From an uncultured Verrucomicrobiota bacterium (lineage in GTDB: Bacteria > Verrucomicrobiota > Verrucomicrobiia > Limisphaerales > UBA9464): a stretch of DNA of 64,000 bases. A program made the position numbers and the translations under genes. Where the stretch lies: the NCBI GenBank assembly GCA_903939515.1, contig CAJAHH010000013.1, forward strand, positions 1 to 64,000, given 5' to 3'. Each line of letters begins with the position of its first letter. Positions within the stretch are counted from its first letter, which is position 1. Below the pieces are notes generated by a model that saw nothing but the letters and a program-made list of their open reading frames with translations, did not search any database and was not told where the DNA came from. Positions 20,588 through 25,530 of this stretch are shown piece after piece.

Positions 20588-21655
20588 TCAGCCGCCCGGA
20601 AAGCATTGCTGCAACCCGGCAGCCACCGCTGAGAAAGCACGGGCCGCCTCACCCATCGGGTCGGCCACCACCACTGGTTCGCCACGATCTCCGCCCTCGC
20701 GGATCGCGACAACCAACGGAATTTCTCCCAGGAACGTGACTCCTTTGCGCTCGGCTTCAAGACGCCCTCCGCCATGCCCGAAGATGTCCACGCGTGTTCC
20801 ATCGGCGAGACGGAAACCACTCATGTTCTCCACGATGCCTAGGATCGGAACCTGAACCTTCTCAAAGAGCGACATCCCCTTGCGAACCACTCCCAAGGAG
20901 GCTTCCTGCGGTGTAGTGATGATGACGCCTCCATCTAGCGGCACCGACTGGCACAAGGACAACTGGGCATCGCCGGTGCCCGGCGGCAGATCCACTAACA
21001 AGTAGTCCAAGTCACCCCACGCCACCTGATTAATGAACTGATGGATGGTTTTCTGGATCATCGGTCCCCGCCAGATGACGGCCTGTTCTGGATCAATGAG
21101 AAAGCCCATGCTCATGAGCTTCACCCCATGGCGCACCGGTGGCACCAAGCGCTCATCATCGGTGAGAGTGGGCCGCTCCTGGATACCCATCATCAGCGGA
21201 ATGCTCGGGCCGTAGATGTCACAATCTAAGAGACCTACCCGCAATCCGGCACGCGCCAAGGCGCACGCCAAATTGACCGAGCAAGTAGACTTTCCTACCC
21301 CTCCCTTGCCCGAAGCCACCGCAACCACCCGACGAACTCCGGGCATGCGATTTCGCTGAGCAACCCCGGTATTGGCCGGAGTAGCCGAAACCGCCGAGGT
21401 CGGCGGCGGTACCTGGACCTGCACATGGGCGTCAGTGATTCCCTCGATCTGGTCCCGCAATGCTGCTTTTGCTGCGTCGGCGATTTGATTGCCGATCTCC
21501 GGATTCGGAGTGGTCAATTCCAGAAGCACCCCGACAGCGCTGCCGTCGATTTGAACACCCTTCACCAACCCGAAAGAAACGATGTCCCGGCTGTATCCGG
21601 GGTACTTGACCGTGCGCAGCGCTTCCATCACGGAGGACTCTAGAATGGTTAGCAT
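20588..21655 (-). CDS. Mrp/ApbC/NBP35-family P-loop ATPase (iron-sulfur carrier type)
   Basis: About 355 residues. A MIP18/DUF59 domain (residues about 8-85) is followed by the P-loop ATPase with the deviant Walker A SGKGGVGKST, CDIYGPSIP and VDLPPGTGDAQLSL. Family members carry or transfer Fe-S clusters, using a CxxC pair after ENMS in many species. In this protein that segment reads VENMSGFRLADGTRVDIFGHGG, with no CxxC. I recall similar cysteine-less versions from Alphaproteobacteria, so this is probably a recognised branch, perhaps with a different mode of cluster binding. ATG 21655 was chosen as the start (MLTILESSVMEAL); the frame is open to 21730. Confidence 0.85.
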   Translation of the reverse strand: MLTILESSVMEALRTVKYPGYSRDIVSFGLVKGVQIDGSAVGVLLELTTPNPEIGNQIADAAKAALRDQIEGITDAHVQVQVPPPTSAVSATPANTGVAQRNRMPGVRRVVAVASGKGGVGKSTCSVNLACALARAGLRVGLLDCDIYGPSIPLMMGIQERPTLTDDERLVPPVRHGVKLMSMGFLIDPEQAVIWRGPMIQKTIHQFINQVAWGDLDYLLVDLPPGTGDAQLSLCQSVPLDGGVIITTPQEASLGVVRKGMSLFEKVQVPILGIVENMSGFRLADGTRVDIFGHGGGRLEAERKGVTFLGEIPLVVAIREGGDRGEPVVVADPMGEAARAFSAVAAGLQQCFPGG

Positions 21656-21693
21656 GGATGATTTTGTTCGGAATACGAGGGTCTTAGCCGTTG

Positions 21694-21733
21694 TAAAAAC
21701 GGGGTGGAGCATCCTAAAGGACGGCTCCACCCC
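21694..21733 (-). terminator. Rho-independent terminator after the cytochrome c peroxidase gene
   Basis: A perfect 10-base stem (GGGGTGGAGC at 21701-21710, GCTCCACCCC at 21724-21733) with an inner TCC/GGA pairing. On the minus strand it is followed by GTTTTTAC. It lies just after the stop of the peroxidase gene and before the Mrp start, separating the two units. Confidence 0.8.
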
Positions 21734-21754: not shown

Positions 21755-22759
21755 TCACTTAGCCGCGACGACCGACCGCTTTTTGTCGGAAAGCGCCCGG
21801 AGGAAGGCTGTCAAGTCGCTCGTTTCTTCGGCGGAGAGCTTCTTGCCCAATTGCAGCCAAGCCATCTTCTGAACCGTCTGCTCCAAAGTCTTCTGGGAGC
21901 CGTCGTGGAAGTACGGCGCAGTCAAAGCGATATTGCGCAAGCTGGGCACCTTGAAGACAAATTCGTCGTAGTCTTCCTTGGTTACCTCGATGCGCCCTTT
22001 GTCCGCAGTGTTTTCGTAGGCGTTGAGGATTCCGAGCTTCTTGTAGTCGTTACCTCCAAGGAGCGGACCTGTATGGCAGGTGGTGCAACCAATCGACAAG
22101 AAGGTGTCGAGTCCCTTCAGTTCAGCAGCGGTGAGAGCTTTGTCGTCACCTTTGAGAAAATCGTCAAATCGGTCGTGCGTGCGGAGGGTTCGCTCGAATG
22201 AGCCGACCGCCTTAGCGAAATTGTCGTAGGTAACCGGATCAGACTCGCCCGGAAACGCCTTCTTGAAGGCTCCGACGTACTTCTTCTCAGCTTTAAGCTT
22301 CTCGACCACCGCCGCCTCGCTGGGCATGCCCATTTCACCGGGGTTGAGCACGGGGCCCTTGGCCTGATCCTCTAAGGTCTTGGCGCGACCATCCCAGAAC
22401 TGAGCGATATGGAAGCCCGCGTTGAGCACTGTCGGAGAATTTCGACCACCCCGCTTGCCGAAGGCACCCGGAGAAGTTGGCTCATTGTCGACGCCGCCAC
22501 GGTTGTGATCCACCGCATGGCAGGAGTTACAAGATTGGGTATTGTTGGCCGAGAGCTTCTTCTCAAAGAACAGATCCCGACCCAGTTTTACACGAGCAGG
22601 GGTGTCGTTTTCGCCACCCGGCATTTTCTCGGGAATCGGCGCCAGAACCTTCAAGGCACCAGCTCGCAACTCCGACGGAGTGGCAGCATTCACCGCAGCA
22701 GGAACCAGCAAGAAGGCCGACACGGTCAAGGCATGAGCCAAAGTCATGTTTATGGTCAT
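21755..22759 (-). CDS. Di-heme cytochrome c peroxidase (CcpA/MauG family)
   Basis: 334 residues with a signal peptide (LTVSAFLLVPAAVNA) and two heme c motifs, CNSCH at 77-81 and CTTCH near residue 223. The family layout of CcpA/MauG is visible: LGRDLFFEKKLS, RNSPTVLNAGF, FWDGRAKTLEDQA, FKVPSLRNIALTAPYFHDGS. These periplasmic enzymes reduce hydrogen peroxide with electrons from a small cytochrome or copper protein. It appears to be a single-gene unit with its own terminator. The neighbouring Mrp gene downstream is probably unrelated in transcription. Confidence 0.92.
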   Translation of the reverse strand: MTINMTLAHALTVSAFLLVPAAVNAATPSELRAGALKVLAPIPEKMPGGENDTPARVKLGRDLFFEKKLSANNTQSCNSCHAVDHNRGGVDNEPTSPGAFGKRGGRNSPTVLNAGFHIAQFWDGRAKTLEDQAKGPVLNPGEMGMPSEAAVVEKLKAEKKYVGAFKKAFPGESDPVTYDNFAKAVGSFERTLRTHDRFDDFLKGDDKALTAAELKGLDTFLSIGCTTCHTGPLLGGNDYKKLGILNAYENTADKGRIEVTKEDYDEFVFKVPSLRNIALTAPYFHDGSQKTLEQTVQKMAWLQLGKKLSAEETSDLTAFLRALSDKKRSVVAAK

Positions 22760-22857: not shown

Positions 22858-24123
22858 CTAGTGCGCCGGTTTTCCAGACACTTCCGCCGCATGCTGGCTG
22901 AAGGACTTTCCACGACCGGTGGGTGCAATGACCGAGTCGATCACACCGTGTTCAAATTCATCCCACATCGGGGACATCCCCCGGAGCTTGGAGGCAATCT
23001 TGGCGAAGGTTTCAACCACGTAGTCAATGTCGGCTTCGGTATTGACCTCGCCAAGAGTCATAATGATGTTCCCTTGGGCCAGAGCGTGATCCAAGCCAAT
23101 GGCTCCCAGGACATGGGACACTTTGAGACTCTTGCTCACGCAACTCGACCCACTCGCCACGGCGATTCCGTTCATATCGCAGAGCAACAACTGGCCCTCT
23201 CCCTCGATGAACTCGGTGGAAAGATTCAAATTAGTCGCAATGCGATCGGGGCCCGGTTCCGAGCCGTTGAGCTGGATGTAAGGAACATTCAGCTTCAGTC
23301 CCTCCCAAAGACGTTTCTGCAAAGGAGCCACGTGCGCAACCCGTTGTGTCAGCCGTTCCTGAGCAATTTCTGCGGCCACTCCGCCACCCACGATAGCGGG
23401 AATATTCTCGGTGCCAGCCCGACGCCCCCCTTCCTGCACCCCGCCATGAATCATACTGACGATGCGGGCTTTGCGATTGCGATAGAGCACACCAACCCCT
23501 TTGGGACCGTAGAACCGATGGGGAGAGAAACTCACCATGGCCGCCCCCCACTCCTTCACATCGATGGGCAACCACCCGGCGCTGGCCTCACAGTCCACAT
23601 AAAGGGGCACGTTTTTGGTGGTACAAATCTGCCCCACCTCACGCATCGGTTGAATAGTACCGATGTCGTGGTTCACATGGTGCACCGCCACAAGCACCGT
23701 CTGGGGCGTGATGGCTGCCTCGAGTTCGTCCAACCGAATCATCCCCTGAGGCGTCACACCGACTCGCGTGCAAGTCCATCCCTGCTTTTCCAAGAAATCC
23801 AAGGAGTTCATCACACTCGGATGCTCCGTCGCGGAAATCACCAAGTGCTTGCCCTTGCGCTCGTTCGCATAGGCCGCGCCCTTGATGGCTAAGTTCGAGG
23901 ATTCGGTGCCATCCGAGGTGAAGTAGATTTCCTCTTCGCTCTCGGCGCCGATCAATGAGGCCATTTGCTGGCGAGCTCGCTTCAGAGCGTCCCGGACCCG
24001 AAGACCATGTTGGTGAAGCGAAGAAGCATTACCAAAGTACTCGGTGAAGTACGGCCGCATGGCATCGAAGACCTCCGGAAGGACCGGAGTCGAAGACTGG
24101 TGATCAAGGAAAACCTGGCGCAT
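22858..24123 (-). CDS. IscS/NifS-like protein lacking the PLP lysine
   Basis: 421 residues, class V aminotransferase fold, clearly homologous to IscS along its whole length. The loop cysteine is present (C328 in SGSSCVSK), as are H101 (ATEHPSV) and D177 (YVDCEA). The residue that forms the PLP Schiff base is Arg203: the motif reads SFSPHRFYGPKG where IscS has GHKIYGPKG, and the codon CGG at 23517-23515 is unambiguous. The Gln after the Asp is Ala180, and the Arg of the SIRFSLG motif is Met355. From memory, Archaeoglobus fulgidus IscS shares this pattern (no lysine, Ala for Gln) and sits next to IscU. The protein may be a scaffold or persulfide partner rather than a desulfurase. It is encoded after iscU and a terminator. 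Confidence 0.88.
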   Translation of the reverse strand: MRQVFLDHQSSTPVLPEVFDAMRPYFTEYFGNASSLHQHGLRVRDALKRARQQMASLIGAESEEEIYFTSDGTESSNLAIKGAAYANERKGKHLVISATEHPSVMNSLDFLEKQGWTCTRVGVTPQGMIRLDELEAAITPQTVLVAVHHVNHDIGTIQPMREVGQICTTKNVPLYVDCEASAGWLPIDVKEWGAAMVSFSPHRFYGPKGVGVLYRNRKARIVSMIHGGVQEGGRRAGTENIPAIVGGGVAAEIAQERLTQRVAHVAPLQKRLWEGLKLNVPYIQLNGSEPGPDRIATNLNLSTEFIEGEGQLLLCDMNGIAVASGSSCVSKSLKVSHVLGAIGLDHALAQGNIIMTLGEVNTEADIDYVVETFAKIASKLRGMSPMWDEFEHGVIDSVIAPTGRGKSFSQHAAEVSGKPAH

Positions 24124-24291: not shown

Positions 24292-24720
24292 TTAAGCAGC
24301 AACCGAATCCGTCATCGCCACCTTGGCGGCCGCGGAAGGGTTTCTCTTCACATAATCTTCCAATGCCGCCTTGAGAGCCTCCTCGGCAAGCACCGAACAG
24401 TGGATCTTAACCGGAGGCAACCCGCCGAGGGCGTCTACAACCTCCTGGTTGGAGAAGGACATAGCCTCGTCGATGGTGCGTCCCTTGATCAGTTCGGTGG
24501 CCATGCTCGAACTGGCAATGGCTGAGCCGCAACCGAAGGTCTTGAAGCGGGCGTCCTCAATTCGTCCGTCCTTGATCTTGATGGAGATCTTCATGATGTC
24601 TCCGCAGGCCGCAGCCCCCACCTCACCCACACCATCGGCATCCTTCAAATCCCCCATATTGCGGGGATTCATGAAGTGCTCCATCACCGTGGAATTGTAC
24701 AACGTGTAAGTTTCGCTCAT
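24292..24720 (-). CDS. iscU: Fe-S cluster scaffold IscU
   Basis: 142 residues, the usual IscU length plus a short Ala-rich tail. All cluster ligands are present: Cys and Asp in AACGDIMK, Cys in FGCGSAIASSS, Cys in KIHCSVLAE, and the LPPVK chaperone-binding motif. IscU builds [2Fe-2S] clusters, normally with sulfur from IscS. The scaffold here looks fully functional even though the adjacent IscS-like protein is not a normal desulfurase. It lies 10 bases after the Rrf2 regulator and is followed by a strong terminator. Confidence 0.95.
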   Translation of the reverse strand: MSETYTLYNSTVMEHFMNPRNMGDLKDADGVGEVGAAACGDIMKISIKIKDGRIEDARFKTFGCGSAIASSSMATELIKGRTIDEAMSFSNQEVVDALGGLPPVKIHCSVLAEEALKAALEDYVKRNPSAAAKVAMTDSVAA

Positions 24721-24730
24721 AAAATTGAAA

Positions 24731-25255
24731 TTAATTTAGACTTGGGGCCACTGCGGTTCCGTCTGACTGCAGGTCAACGGTCGCCTCAGAGGTCGTCAAA
24801 GAAATCTTGGGGTTTCGAACCGAACGGGCCTGCTGAACCAGACCATTGGGCAAGTGGCGTCCCGCCAAGGTGGCCAAACTTGTGCCGGCAAAAACTTCTT
24901 TCATCCGCTCCTGAGCCTCGGCCAACAAGCCACACAGCGCGCAACCACGACTGTGTTCGCAGCCCACATCGATTTCGAGGCATCGCTGAAGAGCGATTGG
25001 CCCCTCGATGGACTCCAAAATCTCCAGCACCGTAATGTCAGATGCTGGGCGGGTGAGGTAGAAGCCCCCACCGGATCCGCGGGCCGAGCCCACCAAGCCC
25101 GTCTTGCTGAGATTCTGGAAAATTTTACCCAGAAAACTTTTCGGGACACACTCTTCATCGCAGAGGATGTCGATCATAACCACCTCACCCAATGGGCGGC
25201 GGGAAAGGGCAATTAGCCCTAAAACCCCGTATTCTCCTGCCTTGGTGATTTGCAT
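24731..25255 (-). CDS. iscR: Rrf2-family regulator, IscR-like
   Basis: 174 residues with a winged-helix N-terminus (MQITKAGEYGVLGLIAL, SARGSGGGFYLTRPASDITVLEILESIEG). Cysteines suited to a [2Fe-2S] cluster follow (LQRCLEIDVGCEHSRGCALC, three or more in the usual spacing). IscR senses Fe-S status and represses the isc operon. It is the first gene of the unit with iscU, and candidate operator sequences sit at its own promoter. The C-terminal 35 residues are not conserved in style. Confidence 0.88.
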   Translation of the reverse strand: MQITKAGEYGVLGLIALSRRPLGEVVMIDILCDEECVPKSFLGKIFQNLSKTGLVGSARGSGGGFYLTRPASDITVLEILESIEGPIALQRCLEIDVGCEHSRGCALCGLLAEAQERMKEVFAGTSLATLAGRHLPNGLVQQARSVRNPKISLTTSEATVDLQSDGTAVAPSLN

Positions 25256-25334: not shown

Positions 25335-25358
25335 AAATTCATCCGATTCCCCAAAAAA

Positions 25359-25530
25359 GGGACAGGCTCCTAAAAGGGACAGGCTCCTAAAAGGGACAGG
25401 CTCCTAAAAGGGACAGGCTCCTAAAAGGGACAGGCTCTCAAAAGGGACAGGCTCTTCAAGAGGGACAGGCTCTTCAAGAGGGACAGGCTCTTCAAGAGGG
25501 ACAGGCTCTTCAAGGGGGACAGGCTATTTT
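25359..25530 (+). repeat. Tandem array of a GGGACAGGCT unit, ten copies
   Basis: Ten copies of GGGACAGGCT start at 25359, 25376, 25393, 25410, 25427, 25444, 25462, 25480, 25498 and 25516. The first six are spaced 17 bases apart with CCTAAAA-type spacers; the later ones are 18 apart with CTTCAAGA-type spacers. There are no unique spacers, so this is not CRISPR. It lies between iscR and nuoA. The core resembles the short GGGACAGGC-type repeats linked in other bacteria to REP-associated transposases. Confidence 0.9.

Follow-up and report, generated by a model that had tools for sequence, protein, structure and literature searches.

In the usual description of the ISC system, a desulfurase bound to IscU passes persulfide directly. 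The window, a 64,000-nucleotide stretch of DNA from an uncultured Verrucomicrobiota bacterium, raises the question of what an IscS beside IscU can do when its Schiff-base lysine is lost. On the minus strand it encodes an IscS/NifS-fold protein of 421 amino acids (22858..24123), named IscS* here, which is lysine-less and carries an arginine (R203) at this site. The open reading frame, the coordinates and the motif SFSPHRFYGPKG given by the first-pass annotation were all correct on re-reading.

IscS* has the class V aminotransferase fold and matches Pfam PF00266 (Aminotran_5) with an E-value of 4e-64. Its AlphaFold (AF2) model has a mean pLDDT of 84, with low values in the persulfide loop (residues 326–333), and the closest folds in a PDB comparison are human NFS1, E. 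coli IscS and A. fulgidus IscS. When aligned with E. coli K-12 IscS, 168 of the 396 aligned positions are identical. The scores of IscS* against NCBIfam NifS (TIGR03402, 413.9 bits) and IscS (TIGR02006, 364.9 bits) are below the curated cut-offs of 530.75 and 643.2, respectively, and its nearest named relatives are Verrucomicrobia metagenome-assembled genomes.

The alignment with E. coli IscS locates the substitutions in the active site. The first-pass annotation had read Arg203 (codon CGG, 23515..23517, minus strand) for the Schiff-base lysine and Ala180 (23584..23586, minus strand) for the nearby glutamine, and both agree with the alignment (K206→R203, Q183→A180). It had also assigned Met355 to the arginine of SIRFSLG. 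The loss of this arginine was right, but the replacing residue was not, as the substrate-carboxylate Arg354 aligns with Ile354 of NIIMTLG (23062..23064, minus strand). Arginine is found here in only 1 of 53 family rows, compared with 30 of 30 canonical rows. An extra deviation had been overlooked: Asn155, which is present in all 30 canonical rows, is replaced by His152 (23668..23670, minus strand), and histidine occupies this position in 43 of the 53 family rows. The persulfide-loop cysteine (C328→C328; 23140..23142, minus strand) is retained in IscS* and in all 53 family rows, and the histidine and aspartate noted before are also kept (H104→H101, D180→D177), together with S203→S200, H205→H202, T76→T73 and T243→T238. 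Thus, among the features of group I cysteine desulfurases (IscS/NifS), IscS* has the persulfide-loop cysteine and lacks the Schiff-base lysine, Gln183 and the substrate-binding Arg354. In E. coli IscS, desulfurase activity is abolished by K206A and by Q183E but not by R354K (PMC9978102), so the loss of Arg354 alone is not decisive. Because Lys206, Gln183, Asn155 and Arg354 are all changed, however, the sequence makes PLP-dependent desulfuration by IscS* very unlikely.

The substitutions are a property of the family. Relatives of IscS* (E <= 1e-90) were found in 81 of 156 sampled genomes of the same Verrucomicrobiota order. Across the 82 loci of this sample, the site residue is arginine in 76 and lysine in 6, the Gln183 position is never glutamine, the Arg354 position is arginine once and Cys328 is invariant. 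When further relatives were added, arginine was found in 104 of 110 loci and lysine in 6 (AAA in three, AAG in three), and the tree requires four changes between the two residues. Across the phylum the family is otherwise rare, with three more relatives in 288 further genomes of a phylum-wide sample, one of them with glycine at the site. The six lysine-bearing members (L132, L033, L134, L136, L141 and L036) have nonetheless lost Gln183 and Arg354. Since arginine and lysine alternate while these two residues stay lost, the feature kept at this site seems to be the positive charge rather than the Schiff base.

A conserved positive charge would also suit another function, in which IscS* binds PLP or PMP non-covalently and converts a sulfur compound more slowly or by another reaction, while Arg203 keeps the cofactor or an acid substrate in place. 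Contacts to the phosphate and the ring of PLP are for the most part retained, so that a cofactor could still bind: the equivalents of T76, H104, D180, S203, H205 and T243 are mostly present across the family rows. E. coli IscS K206A retains some PLP (PMC9978102). However, S203 and T243 also vary, as does H205 in part of the family, and the residues that orient the cofactor and the substrate (Q183, N155 and R354) are replaced by varied residues. Such a cofactor-dependent reaction is therefore considered unlikely.

Lysine-less IscS proteins exist elsewhere. The first-pass annotation had pointed to the A. fulgidus pattern, and the 4eb5 sequence does show it, with SSNDIYGPKG at the site, DATA for DATQ, LLLTLG for IRFSLG and SKTLQPSHVL. 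According to PMC7585200, A. fulgidus IscS (Lys to Asp) is inactive as a desulfurase and contributes one of its cysteines as a ligand of the cluster on IscU. This protein (4eb5, 4eb7, 4hvk, and 4r5f, which is titled as the D199K mutant) is similar to IscS* in lacking the Schiff-base lysine and Arg354, in having alanine for Gln183, and in keeping the persulfide cysteine and the IscU partner, with a fold match of TM 0.8–0.9. It differs in having aspartate rather than arginine at the site and asparagine for His205, in retaining Asn155, in belonging to a separate subclade and in having no conserved 42-residue tail; IscU is downstream in the A. fulgidus-type relatives and upstream in IscU-bearing members of the IscS* family. 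Methanosarcina acetivorans IscS1 is likewise described as an IscU partner that has no catalytic lysine (PMC7585200). In contrast, SUF homologues and further copies of IscS occur in that genome, and one of these copies was shown to be active. E. coli IscS and human NFS1 share with IscS* the fold, the persulfide loop, the SPLW/SPMW C-terminal end and the IscU partner, whereas IscS* is without K206, Q183, N155 and R354. HscB and frataxin, which belong to a complete ISC system of the E. coli type, were not found in any of 12 genomes tested; A-type carriers are present.

Other lysine-less types have glutamine (the bacterial L056 from Dehalococcoidia, L066, L069 and L072), asparagine (Bathyarchaeota) or aspartate (deltaproteobacterial and euryarchaeal records, the latter resembling A. 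fulgidus 4eb5) at the site. All of them keep the persulfide cysteine, all except L072 have alanine for Gln183, and none has Arg354. The glutamine type is like IscS* in having no lysine and in keeping the persulfide cysteine, but has its own site residue and its own subclade. Among the lysine-less records read (L056, L059, L066, L069, L072, L103, L110 and L112), IscU lies immediately downstream in several. The IscS* proteins are a bacterial IscS family without the lysine, and part of this family is paired with an IscU gene. In a tree built with the trait columns removed, the Verrucomicrobiota IscS* proteins form one clade (SH-aLRT 100). The A. fulgidus type is placed next to archaeal IscS that have the lysine, and the glutamine type makes up a third group. 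The tree does not recover a simple orthology between IscS* and A. fulgidus IscS, but a constraint to a single lysine-less clade was not rejected by the AU test (p = 0.38). The earlier proposal of a bacterial branch of a desulfurase-dead family is supported as regards a lysine-less branch under strong purifying selection that keeps its cysteine and lies beside IscU, but not as regards its grouping with A. fulgidus IscS. A literature search, with most subscription journals outside its scope, returned no paper on a lysine-less IscS variant in Verrucomicrobia.

The neighboring genes connect IscS* to Fe-S cluster assembly. The minus-strand order in the window is Rrf2, IscU, IscS*, MauG-like and Mrp, and this five-gene order is common to the 11 closest same-genus relatives that were read. 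The Rrf2-family regulator (24731..25255, minus strand; PF02082) has a conserved Cys-x6-Cys-x5-Cys-x2-Cys pattern, with the cysteines present in 24 loci, and is probably an Fe-S sensor. The IscU scaffold (24292..24720, minus strand; PF01592, 1.9e-49; above the cut-off of NCBIfam TIGR03419) contains the LPPVK motif and all five cluster ligands (C39, D41, C64, H107 and C108), which are intact in nearly all relatives too. The last gene encodes an Mrp/ApbC (NUBPL-type) Fe-S carrier P-loop NTPase (20588..21730, minus strand; PF10609, 2e-94) with an N-terminal DUF59 domain (PF01883), and roughly half of the testable family loci carry Mrp downstream of IscS*. Between IscS* and Mrp lies a MauG-like di-haem cytochrome c peroxidase (21755..22759, minus strand; PF03150, 9.7e-56), which sits inside the Fe-S operon in the close same-genus relatives as well. 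Upstream of the Rrf2 gene start, positions 25355–25525 hold 9.8 copies of a 17-base tandem unit (AAAAGGGACAGGCTCCT-like).

Among the 156 genomes of the order sample, a true IscU (PF01592 better than 1e-40) was found in 33 and SUFBD (PF01458) in 120. IscU without SUF occurs in 29 genomes, both in 4, neither in 7 and SUF without IscU in 116, so that 29 of the 33 genomes that have a true IscU gave no SUFBD match. This association gives a Fisher value of 1e-20, but the tree shows just 2–3 events; it is a clade-level pattern and fails as statistically independent evidence. In the genome of the window itself (96% complete), no SUFBD was detected by the PF01458 profile search, and the single NifU_N match is the IscU of the window. 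Five genomes of the sample (G031, G087, G091, G118 and G148) have no SUFBD and no strong IscU or IscS* match; some of them are incomplete, while G087 and G091 are more than 90% complete.

The arrangement around IscS* differs with the presence of IscU. The IscU-bearing genomes have the order Rrf2-IscU-IscS*, and in 27 of their 29 testable loci IscU is the adjacent upstream gene. Of the 47 testable loci from genomes without IscU, 23 have Mrp next after IscS*, and SUF-bearing genomes retain IscS* without IscU, often beside Mrp. The first-pass view that the protein still pairs with IscU is thus right for the part of the family in which IscU adjoins IscS*, but more than half of the sampled members are without an adjacent IscU. 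Docking of IscU therefore cannot be the sole role of IscS*. Mrp is a frequent neighbor even without IscU, which suggests that delivery to Mrp may be the more ancient function. One SUF-bearing relative (L186:2560-5187) has IscS*, then Mrp, then a small DUF59/MIP18-like protein, the third gene being recognized by eye, and this trio is possibly a three-gene Fe-S unit without IscU.

The genomes also encode a candidate for the activity that IscS* has probably lost. Of 30 SUF-less genomes, 27 carry at another locus a canonical desulfurase in which Q, K, C and R are all present, and the three without one are 75–85% complete. The check proposed by the first-pass annotation gave the same result for the genome of the window, which encodes a Lys-type enzyme outside the IscS* locus. 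Its suggestion that sulfur comes from another desulfurase is therefore plausible. The co-occurrence of the two proteins, together with the location of IscS active sites at the dimer interface, could also mean that IscS* acts chiefly on the canonical desulfurase, through mixed dimers or regulation, and not on IscU. However, the two proteins are only about 36–37% identical and are encoded in separate operons, and it is IscU that lies adjacent to IscS*. This role is improbable.

It is even less probable that IscS* does work as a cysteine desulfurase, using another lysine, such as that of GPKG, or the arginine itself. The fold and the persulfide loop are kept, and the GPKG lysine, five residues downstream of the site, is present in most family members. 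In contrast, several members have lost it (GPQG, GPNG, GPPG, GPAG or GPSG), the canonical K206 enzymes have it too, and E. coli K206A is inactive despite GPKG. The GPKG lysine was accordingly rejected as a substitute, being not conserved in the family and equally present in active enzymes. A sequencing error or a decaying gene, for which nothing was found in favor, is practically out of the question, as the earlier argument against a base error had anticipated, because arginine is present in 104 of 110 loci through six codons (CGT 31, CGG 30, CGC 29, CGA 12, AGG 1 and AGA 1) and the dN/dS of IscS* within the genus is 0.03–0.06, which indicates strong purifying selection.

The retained Cys328, the neighboring IscU, the C-terminal tail and the A. 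fulgidus precedent together point to a non-catalytic assembly partner. We infer that IscS* is probably a conserved IscS fold which has lost the PLP-dependent desulfurase reaction and contributes to Fe-S cluster assembly as a structural partner that accepts sulfur. The six lysine-bearing members count against this explanation, though Q183 and R354 are lost there. In IscS-IscU complexes, IscU docks at the C-terminus of IscS. The last 42 residues of IscS* (LRGMSPMWDEF...SGKPAH; 22861..22986, minus strand) are near-invariant in the IscU-bearing genomes of the main clade and are short, variable or absent elsewhere, in genomes without IscU; a second, smaller IscU-bearing branch (f32) has a shorter tail. 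This distribution suggests that the tail may dock IscU.

As a non-catalytic partner, IscS* would form an IscS-like dimer and dock IscU via the C-terminal tail, which would place Cys328 at the IscU assembly site as a transient cluster ligand or as a sulfur acceptor. Sulfur would reach Cys328 from the separate desulfurase or from sulfide, and in E. coli lacking iscS, H2S can feed IscU (PMC13015791). The Mrp/ApbC carrier would then take over the finished clusters. The IscU-IscS* pair would serve the SUF-less branch as its sole known assembly machine, while in the SUF-bearing relatives IscS* may serve Mrp or have another role without IscU. Since IscS* is apparently the sole partner of the sole known scaffold, the clusters of the SUF-less branch probably use sulfur from another enzyme.

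A. fulgidus IscS was an earlier odd exception from an anaerobic archaeon. The same loss is now seen to be fixed in a bacterial clade, where IscS* is apparently the sole IscU partner in genomes in which SUF is undetectable, and Cys328 is untouched. IscS* offers a natural experiment on what cluster formation on IscU cannot do without: catalysis by IscS, or its scaffold with the cysteine loop. There is about an even chance that this large SUF-less lineage divides sulfur mobilization and cluster assembly between two separate IscS-like proteins, with a non-catalytic IscS, which evolved an active-site arginine and an IscU-docking tail of its own, serving the sole known Fe-S scaffold, and that its relatives use the protein without IscU, beside Mrp.
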